This document shows, piece by piece, positions 40,678 to 55,351 of a DNA stretch of 64,000 nt. Positions within the stretch are counted from its first letter, which is position 1; each line of letters starts with the position of its first letter. The stretch spans positions 1-64,000 of the forward strand of contig JABDKX010000216.1 of NCBI GenBank assembly GCA_013001975.1. Reading direction: 5' to 3'. Origin of the DNA: Saprospiraceae bacterium. GTDB taxonomy: Bacteria > Bacteroidota > Bacteroidia > Chitinophagales > Saprospiraceae. The notes under the pieces are model-generated. The model saw nothing but the letters and a program-made list of their open reading frames with translations, did not search any database and had not been told where the DNA came from. A program made the position numbers and the translations under genes.

Positions 40678-41490
40678 TTATCCTAGTTTATAAAGGTAAT
40701 ATTGTTCCAACTTGATTTTAAGTTCGTCATTAGTAATGTTATAAAACAATTTCCCATTACTCGTATAAGAAATATGACCCGTTTCTTCAGAGATCACAAT
40801 GGTTAAGTTTTCAGTACCTTCTGAAACGCCAAGTGCAGCGCGATGTCTCAAACCAGCTTGCGTTGGAAAATTATCATTTGAAGAAACAGGTAAAATACAA
40901 CTGGCTGCCATTATTCGATCTCCTTGGATGATGACAGCCCCGTCATGCAAAGGTGTGTTCTTATTAAAAATGGTCTCCAAGATTTTAACATTCAACTTAC
41001 AGTCCAAAAACTGCCCAGTATTGATCAAGGCTGGCAAGTTAGTTTTAGTTAATACAATCAATGCCCCCGTTTTTTTACTGCTCAAGCTTTTTACTGCTTT
41101 TAAAATTATATCGAAAGCAGACTTGCTATTTGTAAAGTTTTCAATACCTAATTTTTTCAAATATTTATCAAAAAAACTAAATCTTCCTTTCATCGTATTG
41201 TTCCCAATCATCAGAAGAAATCTTCGGATTTCGGGCTGAAATATAACAAGGATTCCAATTAATCCAATACCGGCTATTGACCCTAGAATGAGGGACAGCA
41301 ATCGCATTTTTAATGTACTTACAACTGCAAGTAGTATTAAGAATAAAATGACGCCGATGAATATATTAACAGCTGCACTTCCTCGTATATATTTGTAAAC
41401 AAAGTATATAAGATAAGCTACGATTATTATATCAAGAACATCGAGTATTCTGATATCAAGATTGCCAATAGTAAAGAGAAATAACTGCAT
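40678..41490 (-). CDS. cdaA: Diadenylate cyclase CdaA (c-di-AMP synthase)
   Basis: The product has 270 residues. Three membrane helices (about 15-95) are followed by the DisA_N cyclase domain. The catalytic motifs are DGA (183-185, in LHDGAVIIQ) and RHR (215-217, in GLRHRAALG). It makes c-di-AMP from two ATP at the inner membrane, a signal tied to osmotic and cell-wall control. The start codon overlaps the stop of the upstream S9 peptidase by one base (TAATG), so translation is probably coupled. No CdaR-like YbbR gene is adjacent. Confidence 0.95.
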   Translation of the reverse strand: MQLFLFTIGNLDIRILDVLDIIIVAYLIYFVYKYIRGSAAVNIFIGVILFLILLAVVSTLKMRLLSLILGSIAGIGLIGILVIFQPEIRRFLLMIGNNTMKGRFSFFDKYLKKLGIENFTNSKSAFDIILKAVKSLSSKKTGALIVLTKTNLPALINTGQFLDCKLNVKILETIFNKNTPLHDGAVIIQGDRIMAASCILPVSSNDNFPTQAGLRHRAALGVSEGTENLTIVISEETGHISYTSNGKLFYNITNDELKIKLEQYYLYKLG

Positions 41491-45622: not shown

Positions 45623-46657
45623 CTAAGAAACAGCCATACTTTCTTTTTCTTTCATACCTTTAAAAAAGTCAGATTCATTTTCAGCACTTACTTTAAGTCC
45701 ACCTTTATCACTTCTTAATACTCTTGAAAATAGGGAAAGCTCCTTGTCAAAAATAAATTTCAACCAAAGCTTAGTCCATGACGTGTGATAAACAAGATTA
45801 TTATAGTATTCAGGAGCGATAGCTCTTATTTTCGGTAAGTTCACCCACGGAACGTATGAAAAATCATGATGTTCGTTGTGGTAGCCAACATTAAAAGCCA
45901 GCTTATTAAGCGGACCATAATAACTGTATGTTTCTTGTGGTGGTGCAACAAGGAAATGCTCTTGAATCCAACGAGCACCTAATGGATGCAAACCAACAGA
46001 AAAGAAGAATGATGCCACTAAGTATACAATGGCCATAGGGCCAGCTATCATAAATAATGCAATATCAAAAGCAATAACAGTTAATAGATTAACCCAAATC
46101 CATGCGCTTTGAAATTGAATTTCTTTTAGCCTAGGAGGCCTCACTGCCTGAAAAACAGGAAATAAAAGTAACCAAAATGATTTACCAATAAAATTTGAAC
46201 CTATCAATTTGGCTTCCCATTTGCTTGCCAAATCTGCATCTATATCATAATGTCCTTGAAAAGCATGATGTTTTAAGTGATATTTCCTGAATGCCGCCGA
46301 ACTTGGAAAGGCGTTTGGTAAATCACACATAATACCACCGAGTAAATTAGCGACCTTACCTTTGAAGACCATATTATGCGTAAACTCATGGATCAATACA
46401 AATAATCCATGATTTGCAAATGCACCTACACAATACGCGGCGATTAAGACTAACCACCAAGCTTGGTCTCTCAATAAATAAGCCATACCAATTTGAAAAA
46501 TCACGATTGCAAGCGCATATATAAAAGTAGCAGGATGGCGGCCCATTAACTTTTTAATTTCTGGATACTTATTTATAATATCCTTAGTTCTTTGTATATG
46601 CGGTTCTTCCGTTGCGCTATATGTAAAATCCAATGATTTATTTGCCATGATGGTCAT
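45623..46657 (-). CDS. Membrane fatty acid desaturase, homologue of sphingolipid (dihydroceramide) delta-4-desaturase
   Basis: The product has 344 residues; a second ATG at 46648 would remove three. The N-terminal region (DFTYSATEEPHIQRTKDI and KYPEIKKLMG) matches the Lipid_DES domain that marks DEGS enzymes of eukaryotes. The three histidine boxes are HEFTH (90-94), HLKHH (127-131) and HNEHH (260-264), the last in NVGYHNEHHDF, as in DEGS1; ETYSYYGPLN (242-251) is also shared. The enzyme should use di-iron and oxygen to add a 4,5 double bond to a dihydroceramide-like lipid. Bacteroidota do make dihydrosphingolipids, so a substrate is plausible. No sphingolipid synthesis gene is adjacent. Confidence 0.85.
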   Translation of the reverse strand: MTIMANKSLDFTYSATEEPHIQRTKDIINKYPEIKKLMGRHPATFIYALAIVIFQIGMAYLLRDQAWWLVLIAAYCVGAFANHGLFVLIHEFTHNMVFKGKVANLLGGIMCDLPNAFPSSAAFRKYHLKHHAFQGHYDIDADLASKWEAKLIGSNFIGKSFWLLLFPVFQAVRPPRLKEIQFQSAWIWVNLLTVIAFDIALFMIAGPMAIVYLVASFFFSVGLHPLGARWIQEHFLVAPPQETYSYYGPLNKLAFNVGYHNEHHDFSYVPWVNLPKIRAIAPEYYNNLVYHTSWTKLWLKFIFDKELSLFSRVLRSDKGGLKVSAENESDFFKGMKEKESMAVS

Positions 46658-48001: not shown

Positions 48002-51000
48002 TTATCTTAAGACAGTAACATCACTGGCTTCAATAACTTCTCTACCTTCAACTTCCAATTCAATCAAGTAAACATATACACCAGCTATTACATTTTGTCC
48101 ACCTACTTCTGACCAACGTCCACTCCATCCTAATTCTACTCTGCCGTCAGGATGATCTCTTGTATACTCATTAATCGCTTGATCATGAACTAATTCACCC
48201 CATCTGTCATAGACCTTAACTGTTTTCACTAAGATTGAACTTCCTTTTCCATAAATCGCCCAATTCCTATTATCATCACCATCAGCTGTCTCAGAAATAA
48301 CATTTGGAATGTAATATTTTTGAATATCGAAAACGTCAACACGCACTGTCGTTTCAATGAAGCAATCTTCGTTGAAGAAGACTTGAACTGTGATCTCAAC
48401 ATCATCAGGATAATCTTCACCTAATATCGTTATTGGCTCACAATCTGTTCCTTCACAAATAATTTCTCCATTCGCCAACCAGATAACATCACCAATATTT
48501 TGTGCGTTGGTATTTAAAGTATATTCTCCAGTATCCGTATTTAAGATTGCTAGAGGGCCATCAATACCGATGTCTGGTTCAACTGCAGCAAATATTTCTA
48601 ATTGCTGAGTAGTCACACAGTTATTCGCATCCGTTACTTCAATTGTATGCAATCCTGGTTGTAGTATATCTATAAACGCAGGAAAATTTTGTGGAGGTAA
48701 ATTATCAGCAGTATAAGTATAAGGTGCTGTTCCACCACTCACTTCTGGATTTATTCCCCCAAATTGGAAAGAATAACAATCAGGATCAATTGGATTAATT
48801 GCAGTAATCTGAGGTGCATCGAAAAGTACTATATTAATACTGGTATCGTACGCACACTCTGAGAATTCAATGGAGTATGTCAATTCAACATCTTGACCAG
48901 AAAGTCCAGAAGGACTGAATAATCCATTAGCAGTCACACCTGTGCCTGACCAAGATCCAACACCAGTTTCACCTGGAGGGCCGTTCAGTAATTCAATATC
49001 TAATTGAACATTCATTTCAGAACCATCCAAACACATTTCATTTGTAAAGTTTCCTAAATCAAAGAATGCAGCAGGACATGCTCCTGTTGTACATGGAGAT
49101 ACAAGATCTGCCAACTCACAAGAACTATCTGTAATAAATGCAATGGTGATTACTACTTCTGTGCCTTCAACCAAACCATCGACTCTAAAGTCAGAGTTAT
49201 CTTGAGTAGTTTGGAAAACACCATCAATTGAAATACTGTATTGATTTACCCCTTCAACATCATCCCAATTCCAATTAACAAATGAATTTGAAGATGTACA
49301 ATTAATATTAGGTGTAATTAATTCAGGGTCAACTTCAATTGAAGTAGTTACTGGTTCAGACAAACAACCTTCATTATCTAAAGTCAATGTTACTACATAA
49401 GTACCAGCCGCATCAAAGCTTAATTCATATGGACCGAATCCAGAACCAACAGCTGTGACACCTGTACCCCAATCCCAAATTGCCGTTTCATTATTATTGA
49501 ATACACTAGTCGCTTCAACCATTGTCGTTTCTGTAACACAAATATCGTCGTCACTAACAGTAATACCTCCTTCAGGAATTATAATAATTTCTACTTCAAT
49601 TTCATCGCTATATTGACAATTTCCTTCTACATATTCATATTCTAAAATGTACATCATGTCCATTTCATCATCTGGTGTAAATCGACCATTCGCATCTACA
49701 AACGGAGAATTCCAATTACCAACACCGCCACCAACAACACCATCAATTACTGGATCAACCAATTGAATACCACCAAGGGCAGCATTATAACAAGGGTCAG
49801 ATAAAGGTGTAAATGTAAATGTTGCTTCTGGACAATCACCTGCCGTACAATCACGTGTACGCGTTACGTCAGCACAATTGTCAAGATCGTTGAGTGCCGT
49901 CACAGAAATCGAAACAATGTCACCTGGCTCTAGTCCTCCTTCGAAATAAGTCGTAGAATCTTGGATACCAATTAATGTTCCATTGATGGTAATTTCATAC
50001 ATACTCGCACCTGCAACTGGATCCCATTCAAATAAAACATAATCAATGCCTTCCTCTGTACAGAATGGATTATCAAAAACCAATGGTGTACAACTGATAG
50101 CAACACAATCTGCTGTTCGCGTTACATTTGGACACTGATTTGGACTTAATGCTGTTACTGTAATAACAACGACATCATCTGGCATTAAGTTATCGATTAA
50201 TATATCTGAGTCTGGATAGTTATTTTCATCAACTTGAGCTCCTCCATTAATCGTATAGCTGATATCATAACCTGTAGCACCAACTACATCATCCCAATCA
50301 AATTCAACAAAATCTAAATCTTGATCAATACAAGTAATTTCACCCATTATCAAGGTATCTAAAACCGTAACATCAACAGAGAAATTATTAGTACAAGATT
50401 CCGGTGTTAGTACAGAAACAGAAATTGTCTTTTGTCCTGAAGAAGTCCAGGAAACCATTCCATTTGCATCTATCGAACCATCTACTCCATAATCCCAAGT
50501 AGCCACATCATCAACATTGCTGTCATCAATAGTTAAACTTGAACCCAAACATAATTCAGAGACTGAAGGTGCAAATGTTGCATTAGGTTGTGCAAATACT
50601 GTAACATTAATTGTTCGCGACCTCATACAATCCCCGTTTTGGTATACATACGTAAGGGTAACAGGTGTAGTTCCAACTGGAAATGCAGAAGGTGTCACAG
50701 CACCTGAGGCATCAACTGCACCAACTACTGGGCTTGAATATTCTGCCGCACCATTTACTCCAGTTACGTCAAAACTGAATGGATCAATAAGGTTACTAAC
50801 ACAGAAAGAAGTATCAGACCATAAATTGAAAATCCAATCTGGATCTGGACAATCTAAAGCTTGACATTCTAAGCTGGAAGCAGGTCCATTAAAACAAGGA
50901 GCATCTCCGATCGCAACTACTGAAATTTCAACGACATCATTAACACTTAATCCAGGGAAGTCAACACTTAATTCAGTTGCTGTATTTGTCATAACAGTGC

Positions 51001-54000
51001 CTACACCTGTTGGTGCTTGGATAACCGTAATTTCATAACCAGTTGCGCCCACGACTTCTAACCAAGTGAATCCAACTGAACTTGCTGTTGTTGAACAGTC
51101 AATAATTGGGGCAGTTAAAGGTGCTACAACTTCAAAATCACGACTAACTGGTTCAGATACGCAACCTTCATTATTAACTACCACTAGGCTTACTGTATAA
51201 GTTCCTGCTGCTGAAGCGCTGTAATTAACTGGACCAGGTCCACTTTGATTACCACTGTTATAGTTATCAGAAGACCACATGTACTCACTAATTTGAGTTT
51301 GGTCTCCATTAAATTCTGCTGCTGCCAAATCACCTACACACACTGGGGAGACGATTGTAAAGTCAGGAACAGGTAAATCTATCGTTTGAACATATACTTC
51401 AAATGCTTCACTGATTCCACATGGTGTATTTGCAATAACCAATATTGGCATATTTGCAGCAAAGTCATAATCTGTAAAATCTACTTCGATCATATCATTA
51501 ATTGGAGCATTCATTACAGTACCGTTAGCACCAGCTGGGAATGTCCAATCATAGGTTGATCCTGCTACAGGGTCAATCACATTAAATATTTTTCCTGTTA
51601 AGTCATTTATACAAAACAGATCGTCTCCTTCTACAACTGGAGGAATGGCAGTACCACTATCTAGGTCAAATGGTCCAAACAATTTTGTACATTCTGCAAC
51701 CACTTGCAAAGTTTCATCATAAGCTCCATCAATAAAGCTGTATTCGATTTCTACAAAATATGGTCCTGCTGTAGCTGGTGTTACGTTAAAGCAAGGTCCA
51801 CTGCCAGCATTTAACATCGTATTAGCATTAACCCAATTCATTCCAAAATAATCTGGATTGATTGTTGGATGTTCAGGATGATCATCTTCCAATTGATCAA
51901 TAGATAATTCAAAACAATACTCTGTACCTGTAGGCGTACAAGGTCCTTGCGTAAGAACGCCTTCTACAATCGCTGTATCAACAGTTACGAGCAGTAATGA
52001 ATCACATCTTTGATTTTCCCAATCTCTTATTATAGAGCCTTCTGGAATTCTAAAGAAGAAATCTTCCATCTCGACGGTTAATTCATAGTTGTCTTCAGGC
52101 CATTCCCAAATGTAACTATCCAAATCTCCATCTTCATCTCTAAATTGACAATCAAACATATAAAGTAAAACATCTATTGGTTCTAAATTTCCAATAGGAA
52201 TAATTTGTATTGATTGATTAAATCTACATCCACATTCAGGATCGAATACCTCAAATGTCAATATGCTGATGCCATCATTATCAGTGGCGTCTTCTACTTG
52301 TTCTAATGTAATGTTATCAGGACCAATCCACTCGATACCATCTCCATTAGGATCATCTCCCACAATACTTGGATCCCAACCACCTAATTCTAAAAGGTCT
52401 TCAACACACACCTCATAAGGACCGAAGAATTCATCAGGTAATGGAGCAATTGTCACAAATGTACAACAGTCATCGCATTCTGCATCAGAACATTCCGCTT
52501 CAATGTCAGTCAAACAAATTTCAAAAGTCGTTTCAACAGTTACATTCTCGAAAGTCAATGGTGGAATAGTAAATCCATCACCGTCTTCACCAGTTGTCCA
52601 TGACTCATCTGTCATACCATTGATTGGTGGATTAAACGTCCAGAAGAACTCAGCACCCAAATCAGGGTTATAAGGACCAGGACTGTCATATTCTCCTTGA
52701 TCAGATGGCGAATCGCCAGCATGCCAAATATCAAATTGCAATTCTGTTTCTGGACAATATGTACCTGGAGGTAAAGTTGGTAATTGAACACAAGATTCTT
52801 CAACTACGACTTCTTCAGGTGTATCTAAAATAAATTCCAATCCTTTTTCAATCGTAATTTCATAATCACATTCTGCACCATTACATCCATCCACAAATAG
52901 ATAATAAGTATTACCAACTATTAAGTCACTTATGCCATAAGTAATTTCGTCCAGACCACTTGAACAGTTTGCATCACCACCGATACAAACCCCATCGTCA
53001 TCTTCACAGAAATCATACACTCCAGATTGAAGTCCGACTGGACCACCACCCATTGCACACATATTAGGAGCCACTTCTACACACAAATCAGATCCACCTG
53101 CTACGAAGGAAAACCAAGACATGTTATGTGGAACACCTGCGCCATTACATAAAGAAGGTGGCCAATCAAGTACAGATCCTAAATATTCAGGTGTACAAGA
53201 TTCAAAACCGTCTAATAATTCTTCTATGTTACAAGTGTGACACCCATCTGCAACAGTTTCACAACTTTCTAAACAAGCGACACCACCACCAACACAATTT
53301 GAACAAATGATACTAACACAAAACTCATGGGTAATAGAATTTCCACAAGCATCTTCAACGATATAAGTAACACATGTTTCTCCGCCTCCAAATTGTTCGC
53401 CTGGTGGAGGACCTATTTGGTAAAAAATAACTGGTTGACAGTTATCTTCAAATTCTGAACCTTCACCAAGTGGATATATTGGCCACTCCTCTCCTGTGTC
53501 TTCATTTTCATAATATCCATTAGGGAAATTATATCCTTCATCACAATTGGCTACGACCAATTCAATATCTTCTGGAAGATAGTCATCTTCGTCTCCTAAC
53601 CATTCTGGAGCTTCTTGATCATCAACTGTAACAATTTGTGTCCATTCACCAGCTGAATTACCACAAGCATCTTCGAAAACCCAAAATCTTTCAATTTCTA
53701 CTTGGTTATCACAATTTTCAACTAAGTATGTTTCTTCAAATAAAGCAACTGCAGATTCACAATCATCAGGAGCAAATAGATTGTCTGCTGGTGGAATTTC
53801 ATCAGCACAATCATATGTTGCATCTGCCGGAAGCGTACCAGGGATAGAAGGATTTGTAGTATCTTCTACTGTAATTGTTACAGTCTCTACAGCGGATTGG
53901 TTACCACACTCATCTTCTACATAAACATCAAAAATGTAATCTCCAGCTAAAAGACCAAAACAGTCTGGGTCTGGTACAGTAGCTTCTTCCATTACAGGAT

Positions 54001-55351
54001 CGGGTGAAAATACCCAAATCAAATCAGCTGGATCTGTACAATCGTTAACATCAGTTGCGGAAGCACTAGCGATAATTCCATTAATAATATCTAACATTCC
54101 CCCATTCGTAATCATCTCTCCAACACATTCTATGGCAGGAGGATTATTATCTATAGCTTGTATTATAGGTAAATCAAGATCATCAATAATAATATCAGCA
54201 GATGTTTCAACTGTATTTCCACATTCATCTTCTATTGTAAAAGTTACCGTTTCAAATCCAGGACCATCACAATCTGGTTTAGTTCCAGAGTAATCATTAG
54301 ATATTATTAATTCATCAGTTGCCGTACAATCATCATCAATAACAGCATTTCCTACTAAATCCAACCAATCCATAATATCGGTATCATTAGTACTTGGATC
54401 ACAAACTAAAACTAAGTCTGAAGCAGCTGTATTTAAATTAGGATCTGTAGTATCTTCTAAACTAGCTGTTGCAATGTATGTCTCAGTCATACCACATTCA
54501 TCAGTTAATGTCAATTCAACTTCAATATCTGGTCCATCACAATCTGTAAAACCAGTACCATCCCAATCACTCACTAACATTAGATCTGCAACATCCGTAC
54601 AATTATCAGAAATTAAAATATTTGCTAATAGGTCACTTTCCCAAGTTGTCAAGTCAGCTACATTTCCCATACCATCACACTCGAATGTAGCATCAAAAGC
54701 ATTTGGCCCATCATCAAAAGAAGGGTCTGTAGTATCTTCTAAAGTAAATGTTGCAGTTGTTGCAACAGCAGAGTTGCCTGCTTCATCTTCAACCCAAAAA
54801 TCTACTGTAATAACTCCATCATTATTGCCACAAGTTGAAGCTAAATCAGCAAGAGCTACAGGATCAGGATTTGTAAACCAAGTAAAGTCAGCAGGATCAT
54901 CTGTACATTCATCTATATATTCTGCTCCAGCGTGATCATTAATCCAATTCATTAAAAGCGTCATATTATTTGGAAGGTCACATTCTTCTGTTTCATCATC
55001 AGCAGGGACATCTAATGTAGGCGGTGTGGTATCTTCGATTGTCACATCTATTGTTTCATCTAAATCCATTTCAACTCCACAATCATCTTCAGCATTTATA
55101 TTAATCGTGATAACGTCACCATCTTCAAAATCGCCAGGATCAACATAATCCCAAGTAATGATTGCATCGTTGGCACAACTTGCAGTTGAAGCTACCAATC
55201 CATTTAGGTAACTAAGAATATCAGCATCGTTATCGTCATCATTACATTCAAGGGTAAAGCCAGTAGGCGTAGTATCCCAAACTAATTGAGCTTGAATGTT
55301 GACTGAACAAAAGCCAAAGATTATAAAAAGTGCTAGGTATAATTTTTTCAT
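48002..55351 (-). CDS. Giant secreted multi-domain protein, T9SS type B sorting domain (2449 residues)
   Basis: A Sec signal ends near residue 21 (VNIQAQ). Residues ~22-690 are about six or seven tandem acidic HYR-like repeats, each closing with EDTTPP/EDTTDP-like links. A module with MSWFSFVAGGSDLC and FVDGCNGAECDYEI (about 690-830) follows. From there the protein is collinear with its neighbour at 55458: Ig/PKD-like domains and FN3-like domains with their core Trp at 1430, 1686, 1776 and 2029. An SprB-like repeat lies near 2185-2255 (SGGTAPYTYT, TIEVTDANNC). The C-terminal ~105 residues are a type B (gliding-motility-associated) sorting domain with VYDRWGELVHD and AGVYVYLIELE. It is probably a surface adhesin. 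Confidence 0.88.
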   Translation of the reverse strand: MKKLYLALFIIFGFCSVNIQAQLVWDTTPTGFTLECNDDDNDADILSYLNGLVASTASCANDAIITWDYVDPGDFEDGDVITININAEDDCGVEMDLDETIDVTIEDTTPPTLDVPADDETEECDLPNNMTLLMNWINDHAGAEYIDECTDDPADFTWFTNPDPVALADLASTCGNNDGVITVDFWVEDEAGNSAVATTATFTLEDTTDPSFDDGPNAFDATFECDGMGNVADLTTWESDLLANILISDNCTDVADLMLVSDWDGTGFTDCDGPDIEVELTLTDECGMTETYIATASLEDTTDPNLNTAASDLVLVCDPSTNDTDIMDWLDLVGNAVIDDDCTATDELIISNDYSGTKPDCDGPGFETVTFTIEDECGNTVETSADIIIDDLDLPIIQAIDNNPPAIECVGEMITNGGMLDIINGIIASASATDVNDCTDPADLIWVFSPDPVMEEATVPDPDCFGLLAGDYIFDVYVEDECGNQSAVETVTITVEDTTNPSIPGTLPADATYDCADEIPPADNLFAPDDCESAVALFEETYLVENCDNQVEIERFWVFEDACGNSAGEWTQIVTVDDQEAPEWLGDEDDYLPEDIELVVANCDEGYNFPNGYYENEDTGEEWPIYPLGEGSEFEDNCQPVIFYQIGPPPGEQFGGGETCVTYIVEDACGNSITHEFCVSIICSNCVGGGVACLESCETVADGCHTCNIEELLDGFESCTPEYLGSVLDWPPSLCNGAGVPHNMSWFSFVAGGSDLCVEVAPNMCAMGGGPVGLQSGVYDFCEDDDGVCIGGDANCSSGLDEITYGISDLIVGNTYYLFVDGCNGAECDYEITIEKGLEFILDTPEEVVVEESCVQLPTLPPGTYCPETELQFDIWHAGDSPSDQGEYDSPGPYNPDLGAEFFWTFNPPINGMTDESWTTGEDGDGFTIPPLTFENVTVETTFEICLTDIEAECSDAECDDCCTFVTIAPLPDEFFGPYEVCVEDLLELGGWDPSIVGDDPNGDGIEWIGPDNITLEQVEDATDNDGISILTFEVFDPECGCRFNQSIQIIPIGNLEPIDVLLYMFDCQFRDEDGDLDSYIWEWPEDNYELTVEMEDFFFRIPEGSIIRDWENQRCDSLLLVTVDTAIVEGVLTQGPCTPTGTEYCFELSIDQLEDDHPEHPTINPDYFGMNWVNANTMLNAGSGPCFNVTPATAGPYFVEIEYSFIDGAYDETLQVVAECTKLFGPFDLDSGTAIPPVVEGDDLFCINDLTGKIFNVIDPVAGSTYDWTFPAGANGTVMNAPINDMIEVDFTDYDFAANMPILVIANTPCGISEAFEVYVQTIDLPVPDFTIVSPVCVGDLAAAEFNGDQTQISEYMWSSDNYNSGNQSGPGPVNYSASAAGTYTVSLVVVNNEGCVSEPVSRDFEVVAPLTAPIIDCSTTASSVGFTWLEVVGATGYEITVIQAPTGVGTVMTNTATELSVDFPGLSVNDVVEISVVAIGDAPCFNGPASSLECQALDCPDPDWIFNLWSDTSFCVSNLIDPFSFDVTGVNGAAEYSSPVVGAVDASGAVTPSAFPVGTTPVTLTYVYQNGDCMRSRTINVTVFAQPNATFAPSVSELCLGSSLTIDDSNVDDVATWDYGVDGSIDANGMVSWTSSGQKTISVSVLTPESCTNNFSVDVTVLDTLIMGEITCIDQDLDFVEFDWDDVVGATGYDISYTINGGAQVDENNYPDSDILIDNLMPDDVVVITVTALSPNQCPNVTRTADCVAISCTPLVFDNPFCTEEGIDYVLFEWDPVAGASMYEITINGTLIGIQDSTTYFEGGLEPGDIVSISVTALNDLDNCADVTRTRDCTAGDCPEATFTFTPLSDPCYNAALGGIQLVDPVIDGVVGGGVGNWNSPFVDANGRFTPDDEMDMMYILEYEYVEGNCQYSDEIEVEIIIIPEGGITVSDDDICVTETTMVEATSVFNNNETAIWDWGTGVTAVGSGFGPYELSFDAAGTYVVTLTLDNEGCLSEPVTTSIEVDPELITPNINCTSSNSFVNWNWDDVEGVNQYSISIDGVFQTTQDNSDFRVDGLVEGTEVVITIAFITDSSCELADLVSPCTTGACPAAFFDLGNFTNEMCLDGSEMNVQLDIELLNGPPGETGVGSWSGTGVTANGLFSPSGLSGQDVELTYSIEFSECAYDTSINIVLFDAPQITAINPIDPDCYSFQFGGINPEVSGGTAPYTYTADNLPPQNFPAFIDILQPGLHTIEVTDANNCVTTQQLEIFAAVEPDIGIDGPLAILNTDTGEYTLNTNAQNIGDVIWLANGEIICEGTDCEPITILGEDYPDDVEITVQVFFNEDCFIETTVRVDVFDIQKYYIPNVISETADGDDNRNWAIYGKGSSILVKTVKVYDRWGELVHDQAINEYTRDHPDGRVELGWSGRWSEVGGQNVIAGVYVYLIELEVEGREVIEASDVTVLR

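Follow-up and report, generated by a model that had tools for sequence, protein, structure and literature searches.

A bacterial homologue of eukaryotic DEGS-type desaturases in a Saprospiraceae genome that encodes serine palmitoyltransferase

In the eukaryotic DEGS family, the same di-iron scaffold carries out both desaturation and C4-hydroxylation, the latter exemplified by mammalian DEGS2, and the Scs7/FA2H ceramide acyl 2-hydroxylases work on the acyl chain. Double bonds are known from RIF-2 and flavocristamide A. In PMC5037126, delta-4 sphingolipid desaturases form a separate cluster with no other substrates known, and many prokaryotic desaturase-like proteins are described as uncharacterised. 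The main Bacteroides sphingolipids include dihydroceramide, ceramide phosphoethanolamine and head-group forms (review PMC10626005), and the RIF-1 base is a 3,5-dihydroxy, saturated hexadecane-sulfonic acid (PMC3463246). The acyl hydroxylation of Caulobacter sphingolipids is due to CC_0202, according to PMC11324152. This DesA-family desaturase/hydroxylase resembles the enzyme considered here in acting on bacterial sphingolipids, but is said to target the amide-linked acyl chain; both the likeness and the difference are taken from its description. The available sections of PMC5591296, PMC9859067, PMC11765627, PMC9278070 and PMC9304779 make no mention of a bacterial base desaturase, and no account of a bacterial dihydroceramide delta-4 desaturase, or of a bacterial lipid with that double bond, came to light in a search of the open-licence literature.

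The desaturase-like protein and its place in the DEGS family

The window, that is, the whole 64,000-nucleotide stretch of DNA analysed (G000:C6:1-64000), belongs to a 4.23 Mb Saprospiraceae assembly of 259 contigs, 98.6% complete with 2.3% contamination. It encodes a membrane desaturase-like protein, here called DES, that matches the Pfam profiles FA_desaturase (95.7 bits, E 5.1e-27, cut-off 29.7) and Lipid_DES (51.7 bits, E 5.6e-14, cut-off 23). The N-terminal Lipid_DES-like segment claimed in the first-pass annotation was thus borne out, and the third-box context NVGYHNEHHDF and the ETYSYYGPLN motif that it had named are both present (Table 1). A Lipid_DES profile search of the genome returned the window gene as its sole match (55.6 bits, E 2.1e-14), and NCBIfam gave two matches only for the protein, both far under their cut-offs.

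Table 1 Features of the DES gene in the window and of the serine palmitoyltransferase (SPT) run on contig C49 of the same genome
Feature	Position	Strand	Details
DEGS-like membrane desaturase CDS (DES), 344 aa	45623-46657 incl. stop	-	ATG start; Pfam FA_desaturase and Lipid_DES over cut-off
Lipid_DES (PF08557) N-terminal segment, residues 10-42	46532-46630	-	profile matches
First histidine box HEFTH, residues 90-94	46376-46390	-	His invariant, 37 aligned sequences
Second histidine box HLKHH, residues 127-131	46265-46279	-	His invariant, 37 aligned sequences
HPLGARWIQEH, residues 224-234	45956-45988	-	subfamily motif; alignment
ETYSYYGPLN, residues 242-251	45905-45934	-	sequence and alignment
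Third histidine box HNEHH (260-264) within NVGYHNEHHDF, residues 256-266	45860-45892	-	alignment
SPT run, 1st: PIP-synthase-like gene	C49, run from 23031	+	NF052561 293 bits, cut-off 350
SPT run, 2nd: DUF4833 gene	C49	+	
SPT run, 3rd: PAP2 gene, phosphoinositol-dihydroceramide-synthase-like	C49	+	NF052609 249 bits, cut-off 480
SPT run, 4th: SPT (L033)	C49	+	NF047600 685 bits, cut-off 640
SPT run, 5th-7th: GNAT, epimerase-type SDR, inositol-1-phosphate synthase	C49	+	

Alignment of the protein with 36 bacterial relatives (n = 37) revealed 66 gap-free invariant columns, including the box histidines, so the 344-aa open reading frame is not a product of chance. Arg-229 and Trp-230 are invariant in all 37 rows. 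Comparison with the nearest relative (L047, 84% identical) gave pN 0.10 and pS 0.74, so the DES gene is under purifying selection; the corresponding dN/dS of ~0.035 is rough, dS being nearly saturated against L047 and saturated for six other relatives tried.

The predicted structure (AlphaFold, mean pLDDT 85, pTM 0.85) fits a membrane di-iron oxygenase type of fold. The best structural alignments of the model were to two FtsHi motor complex chains (Z 17.9 and 16.8), followed by AlkB (Z 14.6 and 14.0), while stearoyl-CoA desaturase (SCD1) aligned weakly (Z ~7), possibly through a mere common arrangement. A phmmer search of the PDB with the DES protein returned no match at E 0.001, hence no solved DEGS structure was available for comparison.

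The kinship of the window protein with DEGS is sound. Three provisional eukaryotic reference sequences for the dihydroceramide delta-4 desaturase DEGS1/DES1 (PF08557), whose letters need checking, aligned with it over 307-319 aa at about 38-41% identity (223-245 bits), sharing the Lipid_DES segment, the three histidine boxes, ETYSYYGPLN and NVGYHNEHHDF. The sole generic desaturase compared, the DesA-like acyl-lipid desaturase of the same genome (L155), shares the FA_desaturase family and the histidine boxes, but reached only 24% identity (30 bits, E 0.004) and was unmatched by the Lipid_DES search. Residues at the 66 invariant columns are the same at 47-51 positions in the provisional eukaryotic sequences vs 24 in L155. 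The window protein differs from eukaryotic DEGS in being bacterial, in lying on a separate branch, and in the region between the second and third histidine boxes: its subfamily has HPLGARWIQEH, whereas the three provisional eukaryotic sequences and two bacterial ones (L002 and L004) have HPxxGHFIxEH (GHFISEH or similar), a motif that is absent from the window protein.

Trees were drawn from 114 collected sequences, a quick tree of 66 rows with an outgroup and a second of 57 rows from which L111, near-copies and the outgroup were dropped; both exclude L015, which is truncated by its contig end. In the 57-row tree, the window protein lies among Saprospiraceae and the provisional eukaryotic rows group with the bacterial sequences L002-L005 (support 100/100, under a warning of long branches meeting, with L012 beside the eukaryote-L002 group). 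The 66-row tree agrees on the grouping of eukaryotes with L002-L005 (support 99). The DesA-like outgroup is an unsafe root because its branch is saturated, and the root of the tree is not fixed. With provisional references and an unfixed root, the window protein falls outside the eukaryotic DEGS clade proper and groups with Saprospiraceae. The earlier description of the protein as far closer to DEGS1-type enzymes than to ordinary bacterial acyl desaturases therefore holds for its match scores, but the protein stands outside the eukaryotic branch, in a large bacterial group that carries ARWIQEH. Its placement is also not among generic acyl-lipid desaturases, as far as one such enzyme can show.

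L002-L005 are bacterial DES sequences from family f24, which belongs to the window's phylum; the genome of one of the four is a single contig of 3.75 Mb. L002 shares 49-51% identity with the provisional eukaryotic DEGS. With their GHFISEH motif and their grouping with the provisional eukaryotic sequences, these four are candidates for inter-domain gene transfer.

Sphingolipid genes, gene neighbourhood and spread

A ceramide-type substrate for DES in this genome is well supported by gene content. The first-pass annotation had proposed looking for serine palmitoyltransferase in the same genome, and one was found (Table 1), with an SPT as its best solved match in the PDB (3a2b, 526 bits) and cysteate acyltransferase lower (28eh, 263 bits). 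A PF00155 search of the genome gave 14 matches, among which SPT and Kbl, the two that were profile-scanned, are the only alpha-oxoamine synthases, the other 12 having been judged by reading. L160, on contig C3, is one of several PF04116 genes; its only PDB match (E 3e-32) is Scs7, which hydroxylates the very-long-chain fatty acid of ceramide. The bacterium thus has a homologue of a second eukaryote-type ceramide-modifying enzyme, Scs7/FA2H, which differs from DES in its Pfam family. With the SPT run and this Scs7-like gene, sphingolipid synthesis genes are present in the genome.

Two further FA_desaturase genes occur in the same genome: L155, which is DesA-like (NF052548 333 bits, cut-off 500), and L157, which by reading is AlkB-like. 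PF04339 (FemAB_like) had no match in this genome, and was found in Caulobacter among the controls. A search of the 98.6% complete assembly for cysteate-C-fatty acyltransferase (CFAT), the enzyme of the first sulfonolipid step, using one query (L137), gave no match at E 1e-95, making a sulfonolipid an unlikely substrate in this genome.

The gene neighbourhood lends the ceramide reading no support. DES is accompanied in the window by genes for a TPMT-like methyltransferase, MiaE, a 114-aa unknown protein and cytidylate kinase (Pfam), with no sphingolipid gene among them. Nine Saprospiraceae relatives (L047-L055) keep parts of this gene order, MiaE being downstream in 9/9, so the DES gene looks settled in the chromosome. 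At 78 of 80 DES loci, no homologue of the SPT run or of FA2H was found near DES within flanks of up to 10 kb, often shorter (more than 5 kb on both sides in 44 of the 80), FA2H having been searched at 79 loci, without L124. Thirty-three further neighbourhoods contained no pathway gene except that of an alpha-oxoamine synthase remotely related to SPT (26%), which lies 8 kb off at L179; MiaE or cytidylate kinase was present in a few of them.

L111, from a Kiritimatiellae MAG, is the only one of the 80 loci with SPT-run homologues beside DES (GNAT 37%, SDR 31%). GNAT, SDR and DES stand in line there (L111:7904-10972) amid transposase-like ORFs. With no standard start to the DES frame and a stop inside the GNAT stretch, this cluster may be undergoing decay or reflect misassembly; the genome gave no SPT match at E 1e-110. 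At L117:5056-6959, in a Leptospiraceae MAG, an FA2H/Scs7-like hydroxylase 38% identical to L160 directly follows DES, and is the only FA2H-like neighbour among the 79 loci tested. Elsewhere in the window, a 2449-aa ORF (48002-55351) is by reading repeat-rich, acidic and cysteine-rich, with an end that resembles exported Bacteroidota proteins, and a CdaA-type diadenylate cyclase gene lies at 40678-41490 (TIGR00159 over cut-off).

The DES gene is no single curiosity, Lipid_DES being found in 40 of the 395 genomes sampled across the phylum. Within the Bacteroidia it occurs in 37 of 375 genomes (36 over cut-off), and none of 14 control genomes has it. A scan of the species-genome collection yielded at least 596 pattern matches and at least 567 stretches encoding relatives, the best 80 of which include Saprospiraceae, Ignavibacteria, Chitinophaga, Mucilaginibacter, KSB1, Kiritimatiellae and a Leptospiraceae MAG. 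None of the 29 pattern matches in viral contigs was a DES relative, and plasmids gave no DES match at E 1e-15.

Among the Bacteroidia genomes, SPT over cut-off was found in 14/37 with DES vs 21/338 others (odds ratio 9.2, Fisher p 3.9e-7, by a test that ignores shared descent). At genus level (n = 188), where shared descent is removed only in part, DES occurs in 21 genera, SPT in 23 and both in 10 (p 1.6e-5); for 9 of these ten, both genes lie within one genome. SPT over cut-off is absent from 23 of the 37 carriers. Genus g210 contributes 11 of the 37; its Lipid_DES scores are weak, its genomes are often incomplete, and SPT was found in 1/11. A Fisher test minus g210 (odds ratio 15) was set aside, the genus having been removed from the carriers only and kept among the non-carriers. 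All five genomes sampled from the window's own family have neither DES nor SPT, and have CFAT.

SPT over cut-off was present in 25 of 34 DES genomes hand-picked from the 80 loci, comprising 16 of the 17 Saprospiraceae/Saprospirales picked, Chitinophaga japonensis, C. rupis, Flavisolibacter longurius and six Mucilaginibacter. Of the other nine, five match SPT at lower scores (380-572 bits) and the last four show no match at E 1e-110. Every one of the 25 DES genomes outside the class encodes an SPT-like enzyme that matches with an E value of 1e-140 or lower but scores below the curated cut-off, such below-cut-off genes being common there (207 genomes of the phylum sample). For one of these genomes, that of L128, the best solved match of the SPT-like enzyme is SPT (419 bits; next kind 286).

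CFAT-like genes occur in 327 of 375 Bacteroidia genomes, yet went undetected in the window's own; being nearly universal, they cannot explain the SPT-less DES carriers either way. Comparison of the SPT and CFAT genome lists by eye left four DES genomes with neither: G561 (99% complete), G594, G615 and G635 (60-68%). A sulfonolipid link suggested by the phylum sample, in which each of six class genomes with DES and without SPT has a CFAT-like gene, was dropped, since chance alone gives 0.87^6, ~0.44. Among these six, L137 was checked against the PDB, G150, G146, G371 and G387 match in the class CFAT search, and G391 is not listed there.

Proposed activity and its rivals

Taking as its starting point the family, motifs, predicted fold class and conservation of the protein, the substrate-pathway genes present in the genome and the co-occurrence with SPT, we consider it somewhat probable that DES is a membrane di-iron, oxygen-dependent desaturase that introduces a C4-C5 double bond into the long-chain base of dihydroceramide or one of its head-group forms, giving a 4-ene base. 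We infer the substrate, the C4-C5 position, and desaturation rather than hydroxylation. In the proposed pathway, SPT would make 3-ketosphinganine, the GNAT and SDR proteins are candidates for N-acylation and reduction, and DES would take hydrogen from C4-C5 of dihydroceramide to form a sphingosine-type base. DES may alternatively act on a dihydroceramide that carries a head group, for example phosphoinositol dihydroceramide. The part of this pathway that is observed is the presence of the genes. Counting against the ceramide reading are the 23 of 37 carriers without SPT, the rarity of DES beside sphingolipid genes, and the ARWIQEH motif.

The main doubt lies between desaturation and C4-hydroxylation; as the chief alternative, DES would be a C4-hydroxylase or modify ceramide in some other way. 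That DES is a C4-hydroxylase or mixed desaturase/hydroxylase of dihydroceramide, leading to phytoceramide-type lipids, seems rather unlikely: both outcomes are known in the DEGS family, and the motif between the second and third histidine boxes is unlike that of the provisional eukaryotic desaturases, but no hydroxylation mark was seen among the sequence features examined. Modification of the amide-linked acyl chain of ceramide, or of an ordinary acyl lipid, has a precedent in CC_0202 (PMC11324152) and would suit the many DES carriers without SPT over cut-off. However, the window protein has the Lipid_DES segment and the DEGS motifs, and the separate DesA-like L155 and Scs7-like acyl hydroxylase L160 are available for those jobs, and we judge such an acyl-chain activity unlikely.

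In many relatives, the substrate could instead be a sulfonolipid (N-acyl capnine), the family then being a general sphingoid/capnoid base desaturase. A CFAT-like enzyme is found in 19 of the 23 SPT-less DES genomes, and that of L137, which is SPT-less, finds its nearest solved matches in chains of the cysteate-C-fatty acyltransferase type (585 and 564 bits). Against this, CFAT-like genes are so common in the class that the pairing is at chance level, and the reading is unfit for the present organism, whose genome has SPT and no CFAT match; overall it appears quite improbable. Returning to C4-C5 desaturation, the first-pass annotation had held that a working enzyme would imply sphingosine-type lipids in this organism, and judging by the genes these remain a reasonable prediction.

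Implications for sphingolipids and for the origin of DEGS

A broader picture, which we hold tentatively and as somewhat short of probable, is that a widespread bacterial DEGS branch makes true 4-ene ceramides and inositol phosphoceramides in free-living members of the Bacteroidota and of neighbouring phyla, and that eukaryotic DEGS shares its origin with L002-L005, through transfer in either direction. If true, this would let the origin of eukaryotic DEGS be tested from the bacterial side. Both DES and SPT occur in named isolates, namely Chitinophaga japonensis, C. rupis and Mucilaginibacter spp. Sphingosine-type lipids are signals in animals, and if the desaturase travels with SPT, bacteria may also supply such lipids.
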